Shown piece after piece: positions 3,879-13,429 of a stretch of 64,000 bases of DNA. The DNA comes from an uncultured Bacteroidales bacterium (lineage in GTDB: Bacteria; Bacteroidota; Bacteroidia; Bacteroidales; UBA932): contig CANPZS010000007.1 in assembly GCA_947588835.1 (NCBI GenBank), positions 1 through 64,000 on the forward strand. The letters are read 5' to 3'. The translations under genes were made by a program, and so were the position numbers. Each line of letters opens with the position of its first letter. Position 1 is the stretch's first letter. The notes beneath the pieces were generated by a model. It searched no databases and was not told the DNA's origin. It worked only from the letters and a program-made list of their open reading frames with translations.

Positions 3879-4931
3879 TCAATGATTTATTATTTTCTCC
3901 ATGGCTTTTCTGAGGAAATAGCCATTTCTCAATTTTTCTCCTATTTGCGCCGCATTGTGTCTCATCTTTTCATAATCCGCATCGGTCATATTGCGGACAA
4001 TATCGGCTATGTCGTAGAGAGAATCCACAACAAAACCGCAATCATGTTCCAGAATGAAATCGGCAACCGCCATTTTACTCCAACATATTACCGGTATTTC
4101 CGCTGCCAGATAGGACGATGTCCTGTGGGGATTGATTATCTTAAGATAGTTGTTTATCCTGCTGCTACATCTATCGCTGCGATCGCCATACCATACCAGC
4201 CCGAAACTTCCGCTGAATTTATAAGGCAGATCGGCTGAACTGAACGGCCCGTAATAATGGATATTCTTTTCCCCGCGGTCGATATATCCCTTCCCGTACA
4301 GGTTAAATTCCATGTTTTCAGGCAGCCGTTCAAGATATTTGCCGCTAAACTCGGGGTTTAGGGTACCCGAAATAATAACAGGTTTGTCTCTTCCTGTCAA
4401 GCGGCTGGCGGCTAAATCGGCATTAAAGGTATCCATGCAATAATCAAATATGCCTAACGGAACAACTTTTTCCCGGCTTACCCCTTTTTTATAGAGATAT
4501 TCCGCCATTTTATCGTTATGCACTAAGAGGTATGAACTTAATTTGAGGATATCGCTGTCTTCTTTAAGATATAGGAGTTTCTTATACAGAGGAGCAACAG
4601 TCAATGGAATGAAGTCATGAATAAGCGTTACGATTTTGACACCTCTTTTTGAAATACGTTCAAACAGGCGCATTAAAAAGAAACTGTTTTCTAATGAAGG
4701 ATATTGCAAAACGACCAAATCGTCTTCGGCCAAACCCGATAATTGTTCTTCCCATTGGGCGAGACATTTTATTTGCCGAATATAACGATTAAACCCTTGA
4801 TGGTCGGACTGCCTGATATAAAGAGGAACGAATCCCATAGAATGCAGAATAATATTAGTATCGCTATGTGCTTTCCCCCAAGCGCCTCGGTTTTGATTAT
4901 CGGTAGGTATTTCCTGTATATAATATTTCAT
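3879..4931 (-). CDS. Probable galactofuranosyltransferase (GlfT/WbbI-like)
   Basis: A protein of 350 residues. The opening MKYYIQEIPTDNQNRGAWGK, followed by LVVLQYPSLENSFFL and GVKIVTLIHDFIPLT, matches bacterial beta-1,6-galactofuranosyltransferases of the GT-B fold. The second half has GLVWYGDRSDRC and NPHRTSSYLAAEIPVICWSK, the donor-domain region. Adjacency to glf supports use of UDP-galactofuranose. The ATG overlaps, as ATGA, the stop of a 27-codon open stretch at 4928-5011 that looks like the leftover C-terminus of a lost gene (about ...FVVEFDADDYPNEITRFL). Family assignment is from recognition. The linkage and acceptor are inferred. Confidence 0.7.
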   Translation of the reverse strand: MKYYIQEIPTDNQNRGAWGKAHSDTNIILHSMGFVPLYIRQSDHQGFNRYIRQIKCLAQWEEQLSGLAEDDLVVLQYPSLENSFFLMRLFERISKRGVKIVTLIHDFIPLTVAPLYKKLLYLKEDSDILKLSSYLLVHNDKMAEYLYKKGVSREKVVPLGIFDYCMDTFNADLAASRLTGRDKPVIISGTLNPEFSGKYLERLPENMEFNLYGKGYIDRGEKNIHYYGPFSSADLPYKFSGSFGLVWYGDRSDRCSSRINNYLKIINPHRTSSYLAAEIPVICWSKMAVADFILEHDCGFVVDSLYDIADIVRNMTDADYEKMRHNAAQIGEKLRNGYFLRKAMEKIINH

Positions 4932-5011
4932 AAGAAACGGGTTATTTCATTTGGATAATCATCGGCATCGAATTCTACGACGAAAATGTGTAAAAACAAG
5001 TGACTACAGCG
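4928..5011 (-). pseudogene. Possible 3' remnant of a deleted gene
   Basis: Between the polymerase and the galactofuranosyltransferase a 27-codon frame without a start codon ends ...VVEFDADDYPNEITRFL and shares an ATGA stop-start overlap with the next gene. Such an overlap is normal for an intact upstream neighbour. The segment could therefore be the surviving tail of a gene removed by deletion. There is no recognisable family, and chance cannot be excluded. Confidence 0.25.
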
Positions 5012-6108: not shown

Positions 6109-7107
6109 TTAATGCTTCAAAATATAGATTCTATATATTATTCTCAACATGGGGACAAGCATATAATTATTCCACCGCATCAACTTCACAAACCACTCCT
6201 TCCCAAGTTTTTCAAATACGCCGGGCGAGATTTTCTTCACTTCATTATCAAATTCCTTAATATTTTTCGCGGATTCATTTTTGTCTGGGAATAATAAATA
6301 CGTTCTGAAAGTACTTCCAATGCTTTGAGCGACTCTTTTATAAATCGCTTGGTCTTTAGATTCGCATAAATGGTTCTCTTCCAGAAATGCGGAATACATC
6401 CTGCATACATTGCATGCGACTCTCTCCTGCATTCCTATATTTTTTACCATATTCTTCTTGCTGGTGCTTTGAGAGACATTGCTTTTTCGATACATATATA
6501 CAGGTATTCCCATATACATCACTGTATCAGCATAGAACAACGACCAGATTGTATATTCTATATCTACATAATAGCACTTTTCCGTTATCTTGATATTATT
6601 ATCTCTTAACAGGTTTGTCTTTATAGTCATTATTGACAGACCTATTTGTGCGAATTCAGCAATCTCCTCCCATCTGTATACCTTACCATCTGTCAGGTTC
6701 CTAATGGGCAGATTATAAGTTTCACCGTTATCCTTGATTATCTTGCATTGAGTCAGAACCATATCGGCGTCGCTCTGCTTCAACCGTTGTATATATTCAG
6801 CAAATCCGTTTTGTTCGACCCAATCATCGCCATCGAGAACCCGAAAATATTTTCCATTGGCAAGTTCAAGACTTTTGTTTATCGTCGAGCCATGTCCGCC
6901 ATTCTCTTTCGCTATATATTTGAATGACTCCGGCGCCATAGCTTGATATTTCAATGCGATATCTGCGGTGCCGTCCGTGGAACCGTCATCCACAACCAGC
7001 ACCTCGATATCGTTCAGGAACCTTGCATCATTGAGCGAAGCCAAAGTTTGATCGAGGAATTTCTCGACATTGTATGCAGCTACCGATACGGTTAGAATTT
7101 TACTCAT
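6109..7107 (-). CDS. Family 2 glycosyltransferase
   Basis: A GT-A protein of 332 residues. The N-terminus KILTVSVAAYNVEKFLDQTL is the classic GT2 nucleotide-binding start. VLVVDDGSTDGT (about residues 36-47) and FRVLDGDDWVEQNGF (about 89-103) supply the DDGS and DXD-type acidic motifs for the metal-sugar nucleotide. The C-terminal third has no membrane helix. The gene follows the CDP-alcohol phosphotransferase by 15 bases and precedes the polymerase by one base. A broken paralogue of its first codons survives at 11028-11108. The sugar transferred is unknown. Confidence 0.85.
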   Translation of the reverse strand: MSKILTVSVAAYNVEKFLDQTLASLNDARFLNDIEVLVVDDGSTDGTADIALKYQAMAPESFKYIAKENGGHGSTINKSLELANGKYFRVLDGDDWVEQNGFAEYIQRLKQSDADMVLTQCKIIKDNGETYNLPIRNLTDGKVYRWEEIAEFAQIGLSIMTIKTNLLRDNNIKITEKCYYVDIEYTIWSLFYADTVMYMGIPVYMYRKSNVSQSTSKKNMVKNIGMQERVACNVCRMYSAFLEENHLCESKDQAIYKRVAQSIGSTFRTYLLFPDKNESAKNIKEFDNEVKKISPGVFEKLGKEWFVKLMRWNNYMLVPMLRIIYRIYILKH

Positions 7108-7122
7108 AACATATTTATGTTT

Positions 7123-7875
7123 TTATTCATAATCTGGCATCTCATATTCTTTTGCTTTCCTTATTGCTTTACGTACAAGTAACATCGTGCTTAATACAAA
7201 TGACCCTCCGTAATAGAAAAGATAATATATTATGGCAATATCTAAAACCTTGAATATTGCTGCAAACAATACTATTTCAGGTATTACTCCAAGTCCGAAA
7301 CGGCTTACCAAATTCATAAGCTTATTATCGGTGCGAAAATCCGCTTCCTGTTTGATTATCCTTTGTTCAACCAATTTGCAAGCATTGTTGTTGTACTTTT
7401 GATATACAAGTCTCATCATGGTATCGGAACTCGATGCCAATGCTCCTATAAGAATTATCCATGGATTGCCGGGAGTGAAAATTAAGCCGCCTTCAAAATA
7501 CACCGCTATTCCCATAGCAGCACCGGTGAAACCGACCAGAAAGTAACTGCTCATACTATCCGCAAATTCACCGAAAGGCTGTTTTTTTACAACTCTGGCA
7601 AGATTGCCGTCAACACAATCTAAAATCTTCCAAAGTATCATCAATATCGATCCGACTATGTGGTATGTCTGGATTCTGAACAAAAACATTACTGCCGCTA
7701 CAAGTGCTACAAGCGTCGAGAAATAGGAAACTGCATTTGCAGATATTCTGAGATTGGCGCAGATACTCGCCAGAACAAATGAAATGGGTCTATACAATAT
7801 TCCCGTTAATATTGAATCTTTCTTTCGTTTCCAATCAGGAAAGTTTTCCTTAAAATACTTAGGTGTAAGTTTCAT
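7123..7875 (-). CDS. CDP-alcohol phosphotransferase family membrane protein with a degenerate signature
   Basis: A 250-residue membrane protein with about six helices. The CDP-alcohol phosphotransferase signature D-xx-DG-xx-AR-x8-G-xxx-D-xxx-D is recognisable at residues 86-110 (DCVDGNLARVVKKQPFGEFA, then DSMSS). Two departures are visible: only seven residues separate AR from G, and the last aspartate, the proposed catalytic base, is a serine (S110). Canonical members transfer a phospho-alcohol from a CDP-alcohol to an acceptor alcohol. In this locus the expected donor would be the product of the nucleotidyltransferase-aminotransferase at 9209-11023. Activity is uncertain because of the missing residue. 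No frameshift is visible and the fold seems complete. Confidence 0.75.
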   Translation of the reverse strand: MKLTPKYFKENFPDWKRKKDSILTGILYRPISFVLASICANLRISANAVSYFSTLVALVAAVMFLFRIQTYHIVGSILMILWKILDCVDGNLARVVKKQPFGEFADSMSSYFLVGFTGAAMGIAVYFEGGLIFTPGNPWIILIGALASSSDTMMRLVYQKYNNNACKLVEQRIIKQEADFRTDNKLMNLVSRFGLGVIPEIVLFAAIFKVLDIAIIYYLFYYGGSFVLSTMLLVRKAIRKAKEYEMPDYE

Positions 7876-7913
7876 AATTTTCTTAATTTATATAGTTGTA
7901 TTCGATGATTCTA

Positions 7914-8132
7914 CTATAATATCTTTCGTGACTTTGAAAAATCGGCTTTTCCTGCGAACAAAGTCTTAACTTTAGTTCTAATTCCAATTTTCAAGGGAGA
8001 TTGCAAGACATCTACATCCAGCATATGATTACCTTCGATAATTTCGATGTTGTTATTTGAGTCAATGCAAATATCCCAACCCACGATTGGCGCATCAGGC
8101 ATTATGGCGTGAGCGGCTTTGCAGGACAGACA
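7914..8132 (-). pseudogene. C-terminal remnant of a sugar-transfer-associated ATP-grasp protein
   Basis: About 70 codons remain. The segment AAHAIMPDAPIVGWDICID, followed by IEIIEGNHMLDVDVLQSP, matches the end of ATP-grasp enzymes found in glycan loci, where the consensus is close to GWDIAITPDGPVLIEGN and the Asn/Glu residues hold Mg-ATP. Full proteins are about 300 residues or more. The homologous frame begins only just after the stop of the preceding gene (8135), so the N-terminal three quarters are gone. A product could start at the ATG at 8102 (62 residues), but it could not bind ATP in the usual way. The remnant implies a former ligase step in this pathway. Confidence 0.65.
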
Positions 8133-8134
8133 TC

Positions 8135-9103
8135 TTATATATAATATTTTTCTGTTTCCTTTATAATCGGTATTTCTGGCAAATTTCTATCTGCAACCAT
8201 TTCGTAAATTTTAGAAGCATACACCACATCATGCAATGCGAGACCGTAATTATAACATAAAATACGTTGTTGGTCAGACTTGCGTCCCAAATCTCTACCG
8301 TCAAGTACTTCACTTATTTCATTATAATCATGGAATTGAGAAAAATATTTGAAACCTTTGATATGATTGGTATCATCGCCGAAAATGCGGTCGAAAGTTG
8401 TATCGCAATTCTGAAATCCTCGTGTGTGAATAGGGATAACAGTTATTCCGCTTTCGAAAGATTTTTCATTTTCTACAAGGAGTCCCTCAGCACTTGTAAT
8501 GCAACTGAAAAGTACATCGACTGTTCCGACAAGCTTCTCGATGTTATCAACTATTTCAAATTTTACATTATCGTATTGATTGAACCGTTCTATAAATTGT
8601 TCTGTCTGATTCTTGTAATTAAAAAGTTTTACGTTAAAAAACATATTCGGTTCGCTTGATAATACACACAACAAAGTAGCTCGTGCTGTATTGCCTAATC
8701 CAATAAATCCATATATAGAAGCGTTTTTTTTGCGTACCGCCTTGGCAGATACAGCGCCCACAGCACCTGTACGCATGGTTGTAATCCAATCGCAATCCAT
8801 AAGCGCAAGTAAATCGCCGTTATAGGCATTGTAGAGCAACATATCGCTGCCTAAACTCGGGATAGCTCCGGCTATACGGTGTACTTCTTTTATGCCGAAA
8901 AACCTTAATTTGCTGCTATTCGATTTTGAGGGTGGAAGAAGACACGGCATGGAAGTGAAAAAATCTTCCTCTGTCGGATGTACGCTGATTTTTGCAGGGA
9001 GTTGAGCCTCTTTTTTCATTTGAAAACTCTCGTATATCCATTCTACGCACTGCATGGGAGATATATTCAATGAACGAATAAGTTGTTCAGAAATAATTTT
9101 CAT
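8135..9103 (-). CDS. Ornithine cyclodeaminase/mu-crystallin family dehydrogenase
   Basis: A protein of 322 residues. Hallmarks are MPCLLPPS, then GIKEVHRIAGAIPSLGSDML, then DCDWITTMRTGAVGAVSAK (substrate-side residues), and the Rossmann loop YGFIGLGNTARATLLCVLS around residue 133, followed by a second-domain DGRDLG motif. The family includes ornithine cyclodeaminase, alanine dehydrogenase, ketimine reductase and the SbnB enzyme of diaminopropionate synthesis. The substrate cannot be chosen from sequence. Its place between an opine-dehydrogenase scar and an ATP-grasp remnant, in a glycan locus with an aminotransferase, suggests formation of an unusual amino or imino acid substituent. That is inference. 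Confidence 0.75.
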   Translation of the reverse strand: MKIISEQLIRSLNISPMQCVEWIYESFQMKKEAQLPAKISVHPTEEDFFTSMPCLLPPSKSNSSKLRFFGIKEVHRIAGAIPSLGSDMLLYNAYNGDLLALMDCDWITTMRTGAVGAVSAKAVRKKNASIYGFIGLGNTARATLLCVLSSEPNMFFNVKLFNYKNQTEQFIERFNQYDNVKFEIVDNIEKLVGTVDVLFSCITSAEGLLVENEKSFESGITVIPIHTRGFQNCDTTFDRIFGDDTNHIKGFKYFSQFHDYNEISEVLDGRDLGRKSDQQRILCYNYGLALHDVVYASKIYEMVADRNLPEIPIIKETEKYYI

Positions 9104-9125: not shown

Positions 9126-9209
9126 CTATTTGTTTTGCGTCTGTATACCGGCACAAACATGCGCCAAATTGCCACCTCCCACAATGCAGATATTCACAAA
9201 TCTTACCAT
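9126..9209 (-). pseudogene. Opine-dehydrogenase N-terminal scar (27 codons)
   Basis: This is a mini-frame of 27 residues whose ATG overlaps the stop of the fusion gene as TAATG. Residues 7-21 (ICIVGGGNLAHVCAG) are the NAD-binding loop at the extreme N-terminus of octopine/opine dehydrogenases, normally IxGGGNLGHxxAG. The frame then stops after IQTQNK. A complete enzyme has about 360 residues, so nearly everything has been deleted while the start, the coupling to the upstream gene and a stop codon remain. Family recognition rests on this short motif only. Confidence 0.55.
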
Positions 9210-11023
9210 TATTTATCCAGTGATTTGAGAGCCTCTATCAACTTCTCATTGTCCGTATGGCCGCGGACGGCTATGCGCAAATATTGTTTCCCGTCGAAGC
9301 CGATTTTATCGGAGCAGTCCCTGATAAGAATATTTTGTTCTTTGAGCAGTCGTATGACGAGGGTTGCCGCTTTGCGGGGTGGCAATACTTTGGCAAGAAA
9401 ATAATTCGCCTGTGAGGGCATCACCCTGAGATACGGAATAGAACGAAGTCCTTCCTCGAAATTCCGGCGTTCCTCTATAAACCGGACACATGCTTTCTTG
9501 TAATCTTTTTCGTACTTGGTAAATATCTGCATGAAAAATTCGGCAAATGAATTCAGATTCCAAATGCTTACTGATTTTTTCATGTCTGCAATCATTTCCT
9601 TGTCGCTTGAGGCCAGAATCCCCAATCGCAATCCGGGGACTCCGTAGCTCTTTGATATGGACTTAATAACGACCAAATGGGGATATGTCTCAAGAATGTC
9701 GTCCCGCAGCAGGGAGCAGGTCTTCCATTGCTCACTGAAATCCACAAAACTTTCATCTACAATCAGCCGTATATCCGATTCCTCGCACCATGCAGCCAGC
9801 GACAGGATATCATCAAAAGGAATGAAATTGCCCGAAGGATTGTCCGGATTGATGAGCAACAGGGTATCTACAGGATGTGTACCGAAATATTCTTTTAAGT
9901 CTTGCGCCGAATAGCGGTATTCATCGTTATCCGGAATGAAGGTGACCAGTGCGTTATTATTAACCCGGTTGGGGTATTCCTCAAAAGTCGGCCGGGTAAT
10001 GCCTATCTTGCCTTTTTCCTTCTCCATGAGGATTTTGATAAGCTCCGCTGCACCATTGCCCGGAATGATATACTCCTCACTTACTCCCCAGCATTTACTG
10101 GCAAGCAGCGAATTGATTTTCATTCCGGACGGGTATTCCGTAAGCAATGTCTTGAAATTCGCCTGCATCTCATCGATGATCTTCGACGAGGGGAAAAAGG
10201 GATTCACCAAGTAGCAATAATCCAACATTTTTGGGAATCTCCAATAGCCGCCATACCGTCCGTAATACTTGCGGAGCATGTCGTCATCTTCAGCAAACAG
10301 AGCTTCAGCAATATCCAGATCTTGCTTGTCGTCTATCTCGTACCATTTTTTGTCGGGAATAGGCAATGCTTTCAGTTCATGTGAATTGAGAAACGAAATT
10401 ATGCGCAATACATTTTCGTAGTATTCGTTGTTTCCTTCAACTTTACAATAGGCATCAAGGAAAGGAACATACTTTGTTGAACTGAAATCCTTTGAAAATT
10501 TATAGACGTTCATCGTCTTGTAGTAATTGCTCGCCTCGTTGTATTTGAACGCATCTTTGGTTATGAAATTGATGATGTTGTTGTCTTCGTCTATTCTCAC
10601 CATCGTTCCGTCCATCCACGTTTCGTATTTGCTGACAAGAGCCAGATTGGGATATGGACTTTCAAGCAGGATCTCGAATATGCCGTCTTCGAATATAAGA
10701 TCACTTTCCACCAGAAGGGTGTCATCCTCCTGCAGTTGCCGCTTGGTCAAAGCCAATGAATATATATTGTTGGTTTTATCATAAACCGGATTGGTAACAT
10801 ATTCTATCTTCAAATCCCCGTATGTATGACCGACATAATCCATCAGTTTCTCCCCTTTATAACCCACGACAATGATCACCCGATTGAGTTTCAATCGGGA
10901 CAGTTGGGTCAGTAATCGATCAATCAAAAGAGTTCCGTTGACCGGCACCATACATTTGGTATTATGCTCGGTATATTTGCCGAAACGTCTGCCCATTCCG
11001 GCTGCTAATATGATTGCCTGCAT
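9209..11023 (-). CDS. Bifunctional sugar/alcohol-phosphate nucleotidyltransferase and class I aminotransferase-fold (CobD-like) enzyme
   Basis: A fusion of 604 residues. Residues 1-235 are a LicC/RmlA-type nucleotidyltransferase: IILAAGMGRRFGKYTEHNTK with the signature GxGxR-K, and LLVESDLIFED as the metal-binding region. Residues about 245-604 are a fold-type I PLP enzyme resembling HisC and CobD: EEYIIPGNGAAELIKILM, NPDNPSGNFIPFDD, and IKSISKSYGVPGLRLGIL with the PLP lysine. In relatives the second domain decarboxylates phosphoserine or phosphothreonine, or transaminates; the first makes a CDP adduct. A product such as CDP-ethanolamine or CDP-aminopropanol for the phosphotransferase at 7123-7875 is a reasonable inference, not shown. 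The gene lies four bases after the GT2 scar and overlaps the opine-dehydrogenase scar. Confidence 0.8.
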   Translation of the reverse strand: MQAIILAAGMGRRFGKYTEHNTKCMVPVNGTLLIDRLLTQLSRLKLNRVIIVVGYKGEKLMDYVGHTYGDLKIEYVTNPVYDKTNNIYSLALTKRQLQEDDTLLVESDLIFEDGIFEILLESPYPNLALVSKYETWMDGTMVRIDEDNNIINFITKDAFKYNEASNYYKTMNVYKFSKDFSSTKYVPFLDAYCKVEGNNEYYENVLRIISFLNSHELKALPIPDKKWYEIDDKQDLDIAEALFAEDDDMLRKYYGRYGGYWRFPKMLDYCYLVNPFFPSSKIIDEMQANFKTLLTEYPSGMKINSLLASKCWGVSEEYIIPGNGAAELIKILMEKEKGKIGITRPTFEEYPNRVNNNALVTFIPDNDEYRYSAQDLKEYFGTHPVDTLLLINPDNPSGNFIPFDDILSLAAWCEESDIRLIVDESFVDFSEQWKTCSLLRDDILETYPHLVVIKSISKSYGVPGLRLGILASSDKEMIADMKKSVSIWNLNSFAEFFMQIFTKYEKDYKKACVRFIEERRNFEEGLRSIPYLRVMPSQANYFLAKVLPPRKAATLVIRLLKEQNILIRDCSDKIGFDGKQYLRIAVRGHTDNEKLIEALKSLDK

Positions 11024-11027
11024 AATA

Positions 11028-11108
11028 CTATTTATTTAATTTGAGCATAAATTCTTTTCCTATGTAATTTTTGTATGTGGCAATTGATACAGTTAGGATT
11101 TTATTCAT
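11028..11108 (-). pseudogene. Glycosyltransferase family 2 scar (26 codons)
   Basis: A frame from ATG 11108 to TAG 11028 begins MNKILTVSIATYKNYIGKEF. The first 12 residues are a standard GT2 start and resemble the intact GT2 of this locus (KILTVSVAAYNVE). The last dozen do not continue the family and end at a stop. An internal deletion has thus removed almost the whole gene but left start, stop and operon spacing. The nucleotide sequence around the start also resembles that of the gene at 6109-7107, so it was a paralogue. Confidence 0.55.
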
Positions 11109-11135: not shown

Positions 11136-11531
11136 TTATTCTTTCTCTAATTGGGTTATAGCGTTATTATAAAAATTTTCTAAACTGCTGGCCTGACTGC
11201 ATATATCAAATAATTGAGACAATCCGCAAACACTCCTATTGTATTCGTATCCCAATATAATGCTTGCCCATATTTTTGGACATGTTTCAATACTTTGAAA
11301 CGTAACGCACTCCGTCATTGCCATCTCTACCGTTATCTTGTCCGACAATACACACGGCAGGCCTGTCGCCTGCGCTTCAATACCTACAACCGGAAGTCCT
11401 TCGTATCTTGACGGCAATACGAACACATCCATTGCCTGATACAGTCTATACACATCATCTCGGTTTCCTAAGAACAATATATTATCCTGTATATTCCGTG
11501 ATGCTTCTATTTTCTCAAATAACATCTCCAT
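11136..11531 (-). pseudogene. C-terminal half of a second GT4 glycosyltransferase
   Basis: An open frame of 131 residues that corresponds only to the donor-binding half of a GT4 enzyme. It contains NILFLGNRDDVYRLYQAMDV, then FVLPSRYEGLPVVGIEAQAT with the E-x7-E sugar-nucleotide motif region, then GLPCVLSDK. It is homologous to, but clearly diverged from, the C-terminal half encoded at 11515-11808. It starts inside the last 17 bases of that gene. There is no N-terminal acceptor domain anywhere nearby, so this is a truncated paralogue or a recombination by-product. It could in principle be expressed by translational coupling. Confidence 0.7.
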
Positions 11532-12590
11532 AATAATTTATCAACTTGATTGATGCTTTTGTAACGTCATACTTAGAATACACCCAATGCGATATTTCTG
11601 CTGTTGGTATTTGTCCCAAGATGCTTTCAGCCCATTTTTCAACAGAATTATAGAGAGACATTCTTTGTGTACTGTCTGAAATAACAGCATCATCTGGAAC
11701 TACGTCTGACATTACCGTCCTAACACCGCAAAACTGAGCTTCGACTGCCGCTATGCCAAGGCCCTCATATCTTGACGGGAAAACAAACACATCCATAGCC
11801 TCATACAACCTATAGACATCATTTCTGTTGCCGAAAAGTTTTACCCCCCCCTGAGTCGCTTGACTTTTTCTTCTATCTTCTTTCTGTCGGGGCCATCACC
11901 GATGAGAATCAGAACCGCATCTGGATTCTGCTTATATACTTCTTCGAAAACATCTATAAGAAACTCCTGGTTCTTCTGATAACAGAATCGTCCTACATGG
12001 CCTATCACAAATTTTCCTTCAAGTCCAAGTTCTTTTCTTACTTCATTGCGAACGTTCTCATTATACTTGAACTTGTCTAAATCAATGGCATTATTAAATA
12101 TTGTCACCTCGCCGCGTTCCATGGATCTTCTGCCGAACAACCATTCGCCTGCATATCTGGAACATGCAGCATAGTGTGTCGCATAAACCTTCGCAAACGG
12201 GCGGAGTGTGTATTTCAGAATATTTTTCTTCCACTCTCCCGGAGCCGCTGTTGAATGGCTATGTGCAATTCTGACCGGCACTCCAGCCTTTTTGGCTGCA
12301 TATAGCGGGAATACACTTAAAGTGTTGATATGGGAATGTACTATCTTATAATGATTTTCTTTGAAAAGATTTTTTAAAGCAAATATGTATTTTCCGAGTT
12401 TCTGATACGGTGGAACTATATAGACTTTGCCGCCAAGACTCTCGATTTCCTCGCGGGGGATGCATGTCGAATCCTCATCGACTATAAAGTCAAACTGTAT
12501 CTTGCTGCGGTTGATATAGCGATAGTAGTTCATTACGACCGCTTCAACCCCTGCATTGTTCATCTTTCCGACAACCTGTGCGACACGCAT
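11515..12590 (-). pseudogene. GT4 glycosyltransferase interrupted at a G8 tract (possible phase-variable gene)
   Basis: The first part starts at ATG 12590 (MRVAQVVGKMNNAGVEAVVM) and has SHSTAA, FNNAIDLDKF and VIGHVGRFCYQKNQEFLIDV, all typical of capsule GT4 enzymes. It ends ...KVKRLRGG and TAA at 11841 directly after eight G (minus strand, 11844-11851). One more G would continue the frame as VKLFGNRNDVYRLYEAMDVF and on through PSRYEGLGIAAVEAQ to the stop at 11515, giving about 358 residues, a normal GT4 length. As read, the donor-binding half is out of frame. The run of eight identical bases exactly at the break suggests slipped-strand phase variation, but a homopolymer sequencing error would look the same. 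Confidence 0.8.
11844..11851 (-). repeat. G8 homopolymer tract inside the GT4 gene
   Basis: Eight consecutive C on the plus strand read as eight G in the coding strand, between codons for KRL and the continuing donor domain. With 8 G the next codon is TAA. With 9 (or 6) G the GT4 frame is restored. Tracts of this length are typical contingency loci for slipped-strand mispairing. Confidence 0.85.
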
Positions 12591-12616
12591 TCTGCCCGAT
12601 CTCCCTTTCACATATA

Positions 12617-13429
12617 TTATACTCCATTGCCCCTCAAGACCGATTTCACCGTAGCGAACATGATTTTCATATCCACCCACAACGATCGGTTCTTACAGTA
12701 CCATAGTTCCATATGCTGTCGCCTGCCGTCCGAATATGCGGCGTCATTCCTCGCATATGCCTGCCAATAGCCGGTCAATCCTGGCTTCACCGATAACAGC
12801 ATCTCCTGCTGCTCCTGTGTGTAGTTATCTCTGAGTTCTTCCTCAATGACGGGACGAGGACCCACCAATGACAAATCGTTTTTTATCAATATATTATATG
12901 TAATCTGTGGAAGTTCATCGATGCTCAATTGCCGGATTTTTGCTCCGAAGCATCTGCTTCCGTCACCAGGCTTCTTCCAACCGATAAGACGCCTGTCGTC
13001 GCGGAGCTTGTATTCGTGCCTGTATTCCTCCAATTGCTCCGGCGTCAGCATATCTTCAAGCCTGTCGGCCCCTTTTTGCATTGTCCTCAATTTCAATATC
13101 CTTATCGGCTTTCGGTTACGGCCTACCCTTGTATGCATATAGAACGGATTCCCGGGATCTTTGCACATTATCATGACTGCAATGATCATAACAGGTATTA
13201 GAAGTACAATGCTTGCAAGCGCGGATATCACTATGTCGAAACTCCGTTTGAAGAATTCATATGCGGGCTTCGGTCTGACTTCGGCGGCAGTATCATTGCG
13301 TTTTTGGATAGGAGCTGCGACGTTGGTTCGCCGTAAATTACTCCCATTCGATTGCCACCCGGCCGTGATATCAACCGCTTCATCCATCATCTCCAATCCG
13401 ACAGGCCGTTCTTCCAAGTCAATGTTCAT
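12617..13429 (-). CDS. Initiating undecaprenyl-phosphate sugar phosphotransferase (WcaJ/WbaP C-terminal-domain type)
   Basis: A small monotopic phosphoglycosyltransferase of 270 residues. After a variable 55-residue cytoplasmic start come YEFFKRSFDIVISALASIVL and the re-entrant membrane helix. Then follow FYMHTRVGRNRKPIRILKLR, the catalytic-region pattern DELPQITYNIL, LSLVGPRPVIEEEL and VKPGLTGYWQAYARND. These are the conserved blocks of the bacterial sugar transferase family, which moves a sugar-1-phosphate from UDP-sugar to undecaprenyl phosphate and starts repeat-unit synthesis. It is the first glycan gene transcribed here, ahead of the GT4 gene, as expected. The sugar is unknown. Confidence 0.9.
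   Translation of the reverse strand: MNIDLEERPVGLEMMDEAVDITAGWQSNGSNLRRTNVAAPIQKRNDTAAEVRPKPAYEFFKRSFDIVISALASIVLLIPVMIIAVMIMCKDPGNPFYMHTRVGRNRKPIRILKLRTMQKGADRLEDMLTPEQLEEYRHEYKLRDDRRLIGWKKPGDGSRCFGAKIRQLSIDELPQITYNILIKNDLSLVGPRPVIEEELRDNYTQEQQEMLLSVKPGLTGYWQAYARNDAAYSDGRRQHMELWYCKNRSLWVDMKIMFATVKSVLRGNGV

Follow-up and report, generated by a model that had tools for sequence, protein, structure and literature searches.

What is a 27-codon frame that begins like an opine dehydrogenase (OpDH) gene doing between two intact genes of an apparent surface-polysaccharide operon? The frame lies in the window, a stretch of 64,000 nt from an uncultured Bacteroidales bacterium whose assembly (2.15 Mb, 104 contigs) is 98% complete. 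On the minus strand, the region from 3.9 to 13.4 kb looks like a surface-polysaccharide operon: it encodes a sugar transferase (named by eye), GT4 glycosyltransferases, a protein that we call NTP-AT, an OCD-family protein, a CDP-alcohol phosphatidyltransferase family protein, a GT2, an EpsG-family protein, and a galactofuranosyltransferase-related protein. NTP-AT (9209 to 11023) is a PF12804 nucleotidyltransferase fused to a CobD/HisC-like PLP domain. The OCD gene (8135 to 9103, 322 aa) matches PF02423 over residues 16 to 305 (E 1.6e-27), nearly the whole protein, and thus belongs to that family. Farther along are the CDP-alcohol phosphatidyltransferase family gene (7123 to 7875; PF01066, E 1.1e-8) and the window's own GT2 gene (6109 to 7107); at E 1e-60, the gene at 3879 to 4931 was not matched in any of 150 other genomes of the genus. 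The initial annotation had singled out two minus-strand frames, at 9126 to 9209 (27 aa) and 11028 to 11108 (26 aa), both of which we recovered, as scars of internal deletions selected to spare the translation of the next gene.

We examined the first frame, which translates as MVRFVNICIVGGGNLAHVCAGIQTQNK. Against a profile of the first 60 residues of the OpDHs of relatives, it scored 32.2 bits (E 1.1e-8), far above chance, as the next best place in the 64 kb reached 13.4 bits and 20 shuffled windows reached at most 12.8 bits. The match covers profile positions 2 to 20 in the place that OpDH occupies in relatives, so that about 20 residues are recognizable, and the OpDH-like DNA extends to about nucleotide 62 of the frame (about position 9148). 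The start codon and the stop of NTP-AT share the sequence TAATG, as had been noted, and 22 nt separate the stop end of the frame from the OCD start. Since the PF02317 Octopine_DH helical domain, present in full-length relatives, gave no Pfam match in the 27 residues, the frame is a remnant rather than a member gene. Judged by sequence comparison, these data show that 9126 to 9209 is the 5' stump of an OpDH gene.

We then looked at what follows NTP-AT in relatives, using NTP-AT as the query. The collection combined 80 named loci (the best 80 of 215 confirmed) with loci from the same genus, in which 27 of the 400 genomes searched gave a match, the window's own included. The genus offered 27 places besides the window, and 25 were taken with their flanks (G354:C55 and G043:C20 [partial] were left out). 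From 108 assembled loci, we counted the 103, window included, that have a complete NTP-AT, leaving out L130, L135, and L137 (partial NTP-AT), L138 (weak match), and L139 (none). The slot after NTP-AT, which forms its upstream border, holds OpDH in 62 of the 103 loci, OCD in 30, both genes in 2, and neither in 9. Among the 62 OpDH genes, one is cut by a contig end, one is inverted, one lies behind two inserted genes, and three are fused to NTP-AT; among the 30 OCD genes, one is broken and one was matched only over residues 1 to 268 (L057). For the tree described below, two rows were labeled by hand, L126, whose OpDH runs off the contig, and L146, whose OCD is broken; L057 was "none" in the first labeling but OCD in the census and in a later recount.

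The two slot genes belong to different Pfam families (PF02317 for OpDH and PF02423 for OCD), and hhalign aligns their profiles poorly (probability 3.9%, E 0.011, 52 columns). They coexist only in L082 and L091, where OCD comes first and is diverged (32 to 34% identical to that of the window, versus 68 to 72% for the OCDs of L025, L028, and L041). In L096 to L098, NTP-AT and OpDH form a single frame of 946 residues (8001 to about 10840; Pfam domains checked for L096). In one pair of loci, an amino acid permease gene and a second nucleotidyltransferase gene come first, followed by OCD in L041 (Pfam domains checked) or OpDH in L045. The slot gene is inverted relative to NTP-AT in L085 (OpDH) and L099 (OCD). 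In L137 (G225:C93, about 6486 to 8000 after orientation), an internal piece of NTP-AT seems to be missing and an OpDH start lies at the contig end; the NTP-AT match ends at residue 274, and the later residues that follow were read by eye. Same-family OCD genes were also seen in stretches without a full NTP-AT (L138 and L139, in G006 and G197), possibly representing another pathway variant or a donor pool.

As to the origin of these records, it counts against the exchange reading proposed below that all 21 named OCD loci are titled as MAG or uncultured; the two named isolates in the set (L053, from Prevotella ruminicola KHT3, and L085) carry OpDH. Five records (L025 and L028 to L031) have Fibrobacter in their titles, the other named ones being Bacteroidales-type, with one just "Bacteroidetes". 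NTP-AT in the Fibrobacter-titled records is 73 to 74% identical to that of the window, and the OCDs of L025 and L028 are the most window-like of the 29 compared. This likeness in sequence suggests transfer between phyla.

We next asked how often the slot has changed its content. On the NTP-AT tree, we counted at least 24 changes between OpDH and OCD, and 22 on a reduced tree of 87 rows from which the window and the inverted, broken, and cut rows had been dropped; well-supported (starred) branches hold 18 independent OpDH/OCD pairs. With shuffled labels (30 shuffles), 19 to 27 changes were obtained, and the observed scatter of types is about the same. The tree was built by a quick method that gave long-branch warnings, with the window among the long branches.

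Pairwise comparisons of DNA located the borders of the swaps. In 18 of 21 OpDH/OCD pairs, picked for their similar neighbors, DNA matched on both sides of the slot; the three others (L041/L045, L044/L047, and L134/L133) matched on the left side only, and L061/L078 and L048/L064 had poor right flanks. In the pair L025 (OCD) and L030 (OpDH), the left match spans 8.7 kb at 82% identity overall, with 95 to 100% per 150-nt window over the last 2 kb, and the right match spans 7.0 kb at 97.9%, with 150-nt windows mostly at 95 to 100% and one at 82%; the swap is bordered by the stop of NTP-AT and by the beginning of the LicD gene that follows. For L020/L022, identity per 150-nt window is 92 to 99% in the 1.8 kb to the left of the slot; to its right, it is 94 to 98%, with one window at 99%, for about 1 kb, and beyond that point homology is lost. 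The flanks are 94.0% and 91.7% identical for L056/L060, 87.8% and 92.2% for L072/L077, and 86.2% over 5.4 kb and 97.4% over 1.1 kb for L122/L123, in which about 200 nt more follow OpDH than follow OCD. The closest pairs differ in the slot gene only, between flanks that are mostly 95 to 100% identical. These alignments of near relatives, in which nonhomologous genes alternate between homologous flanks, show at the level of DNA comparison a recurrent swap of a single gene and alternative contents of the slot.

Within each type, the identity of the slot gene tracks that of NTP-AT (Mantel rho of 0.63, with none of 999 permutations as high, n = 63; in a second within-type test, rho of 0.40, with 1 of 999 as high, n = 30), so that most swaps seem to take place within groups of relatives in which both types are present. 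We infer that the slot gene is transferred by means of the homologous flanking DNA.

Stumps of OpDH directly follow NTP-AT in three loci, those of the window, L087, and L120. The L087 stump covers 54 residues by profile match and precedes an asparagine-synthetase-like gene (named by eye); the L120 stump, too short for the profile and read by eye, has about 11 codons and an internal stop, and the LicD-like gene after it was named by eye and went unreported by the LicD search. Because the L087 and L120 stumps differ in length and sequence, the stumps are unlike a conserved peptide, and the outcome that the initial annotation named as fatal to its view, scars conserved as expressed peptides, finds no support. 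A related possibility is that the mini-ORFs act as functional translated leaders, coupling NTP-AT with the gene that follows, and that selection keeps their sequence. The TAATG overlap and a stop only 22 nt ahead of OCD would suit such a role, but the variation among stumps at the same place speaks against it, as does the gap between NTP-AT and a plus-strand OCD, which measures 105 nt in the window but never exceeds 33 nt in the 27 other loci for which it was determined. Close spacing is, moreover, often present with an intact OpDH, and we regard a leader function as highly improbable. Selection for coupling is likewise not needed, since intact OpDH often abuts or overlaps NTP-AT (24 of 59 loci have a gap of -6 to +3 nt; the 59 include the three fused ones). 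With this tight spacing, and with just the 5' end of OpDH recognizable, the proposed internal deletion retained for coupling is not supported.

The OCD gene of the window is flanked on its other side by a second stump (7914 to 8134, minus strand), the 3' end of a sugar-transfer-associated ATP-grasp gene. It matches positions 222 to 274 of PF14397 (at 8123 to 7965; E 1.9e-7, 30.9 bits, with a whole-protein cutoff of 31.4), beginning 11 nt past the OCD stop. This is only the C-terminal end of the profile, matched above chance, and the ATP-grasp remnant reported earlier is thereby upheld; loose matches to PF14397 occur in 12 of 14 control genomes, 3 of them over the cutoff. The stump had no match in 150 other genomes of the genus. 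It also counts against the swap proposed next that the order NTP-AT, OpDH, ATP-grasp, CDP-alcohol transferase was not found in any relative; ATP-grasp did not come after OpDH in any of those seen, and none of the close relatives found has the arrangement intact.

Both stumps, of OpDH and of ATP-grasp, probably mark where a single untidy swap ended on either side, and we infer one event: a block from inside OpDH to inside ATP-grasp would have been replaced by a piece carrying OCD. As OCD lies between the two stumps, the simplest reading of the direction is OpDH out, OCD in. We then searched the 29 other OCD-only loci by profile for an OpDH end piece in the 4.2 kb that follow NTP-AT and found none, although a stump of the size of that in L120 would be missed. 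OCD is therefore usually found in place of OpDH; for the same reason, the border in the window is unusual, and OCD may have come apart from the loss of OpDH.

The same observations bear on an explanation by simple decay, in which OpDH, ATP-grasp, GT2, and GT4 suffered independent deletions in a degrading locus where OCD already lay downstream. Several gene fragments do lie within about 4 kb, OpDH was lost without OCD in L087 and L120, and OCD occurs together with an OpDH in L082 and L091. Against decay stand the lack of a profile-detected OpDH end piece in the other 29 loci with OCD only, the reversed gene order and diverged OCD of L082 and L091, and the intact state of both NTP-AT and OCD in the window. 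We consider simple decay unlikely. We propose instead, with good confidence, that the slot is a two-allele OpDH/OCD exchange site and that 9126 to 9209 is the OpDH stump left when OCD replaced that gene. The slot after NTP-AT would carry either OpDH or the unrelated OCD-family reductase, and the neighbors would stay in place during the replacement.

We also analyzed the other putative remnants of the region. The 26-codon frame at 11028 to 11108 (minus strand) has a GT2 N terminus, possibly joined to a GT2 C-terminal piece. Of its first 12 residues, 9 match the window's own GT2 (E 0.011), as do 30 of 38 nt at its start. The second half resembles the C-terminal region of the window GT2 (E 0.96, without support from a GT2 profile), and shuffled sequences did as well in 3 of 200 cases against that GT2 and in 6 of 200 against seven GT2s. 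The frame is probably a gene remnant; because the match of its second half is weak, an internal deletion is at most suggested. Queries with the window GT2 gave no match in 150 other genomes of the genus at E 1e-60 or in 294 other genomes of the order at E 1e-50. The idea that relatives would carry full-length genes at the positions of the scars was hence borne out for OpDH; for GT2, no source was found at these thresholds. In L006 and L007, a GT2 with a different N terminus lies 2 nt upstream of NTP-AT.

A further remnant, absent from the initial list, lies directly after the first GT4 gene: a minus-strand GT4 C-terminal fragment without the N-terminal part (11136 to 11531; positions 54 to 108 of 142 in Pfam Glyco_trans_1_4). 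The GT4 gene itself (11515 to 12680, minus strand) changes frame, according to its sequence and translations, at a run of eight G residues (11844 to 11851, C on the plus strand), as expected either for slipped-strand phase variation or for a homopolymer assembly error. The minus-strand segment at 4928 to 5011, previously taken for a gene tail and counted as a fourth remnant, is not supported as a recognizable remnant: it has no start codon at its beginning, a tblastn search of 94 loci at E 1 gave no hit for it, and chance alone often produces an open frame of 27 codons (about 1 in 4 by our own estimate).

What chemistry might the slot serve? The closest match to the PLP domain of NTP-AT is a threonine-phosphate-decarboxylase-like enzyme (PDB 6oux, E 3.3e-51), and the domain scored 184.1 bits against NCBIfam TIGR01140, below the cutoff of that model. 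LicD genes are present in the held flanks of 76 of the 103 loci, and the combination of a nucleotidyltransferase with LicD-type transferases therefore suggested a CDP-activated amino alcohol phosphate that is put on a glycan. The OpDH of L053 matches PDB 3c7a (E 4e-34) and 1bg6 (E 2.3e-6) over nearly its full length, the closest solved structures of OpDH being octopine dehydrogenase and N-(1-D-carboxylethyl)-L-norvaline dehydrogenase. The best structure matches of OCD are alanine dehydrogenase and pyrroline-carboxylate reductase. Opine dehydrogenases join an amine and a keto acid, and OCD-family enzymes reduce imines. Some known O-antigens contain carboxyethyl amino groups, and both amine examples in the excerpt that we cite are (S) (PMC10609480). 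It may therefore be that either enzyme makes N-carboxyalkyl decorations, perhaps with opposite handedness.

We propose that NTP-AT would make the CDP-activated amino alcohol phosphate, that OpDH or OCD would perform alternative versions of one step, its reductive N-alkylation, and that LicD would move the decorated group to the surface glycan. In the window, the CDP-alcohol phosphatidyltransferase family protein is a candidate for this transfer, whereas LicD is found there in many relatives. The two slot enzymes would thus probably offer alternative ways of reductive N-alkylation of a CDP-activated amino alcohol that is destined for a surface glycan. A phosphonate (PntC) pathway was set aside, as no PEP mutase (TIGR02320) was matched at E 0.001 in the 98%-complete genome of the window; none of the 14 control genomes exceeded the cutoff of this model either, so the search has no positive control.

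PntC is itself fused to a transaminase. The slot loci resemble LicC/LicD and PntC-type activation in having a PF12804 nucleotidyltransferase, of which LicC is an example in the excerpt consulted (PMC6697681), with a LicD-type transferase nearby. They differ in that the nucleotidyltransferase is fused to a CobD/HisC-like PLP domain and a reductase is added, and, with respect to PntC, in the lack of a TIGR02320 match in the genome of the window. The OpDHs of relatives share the PF02317 domain with octopine dehydrogenase and N-(1-carboxyethyl)norvaline dehydrogenase, whereas the slot OpDH lies in glycan loci, where its gene is a neighbor of NTP-AT or is fused to it.

In pneumococcus 6C, the wciN gene is of foreign origin and unrelated to the gene whose place it has taken, a case that concerns one glycosyltransferase position in one species. 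The excerpt consulted presents types 6A and 6C as differing by this one capsule-locus gene, which alters the polysaccharide (PMC2949764). The OpDH/OCD slot is similar in that a single gene of a surface-polysaccharide locus differs between types; unlike wciN, it has alternated at least 18 to 24 times over many records, mostly Bacteroidales-type and some with Fibrobacter titles. Among the matches listed in the open-licence full-text literature, judged by their titles, none describes an OpDH/OCD slot.

Could selection maintain both states? One tentative idea, which we rate as possible but doubtful, is that the slot is an idiomorph-like, balanced two-state locus. Its alleles would give mirror-image or otherwise differing N-carboxyalkyl forms of one CDP-amino-alcohol decoration, they would be swapped under selection on surface antigens by phage or antibody, and both states would be kept in Bacteroidales and Fibrobacter.

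To our knowledge, most descriptions of the in-place replacement of a gene by a nonhomologous one concern a single event. The present slot, in contrast, records at least 18 to 24 exchanges between two unrelated reductases, and the window keeps the debris of one of them, which gives its direction, OpDH out and OCD in. The exchange-slot reading predicts two alternative decorations that can be checked by chemistry, and the slot would provide a small, testable system for the diversity that surface glycans may gain through single-gene swaps.
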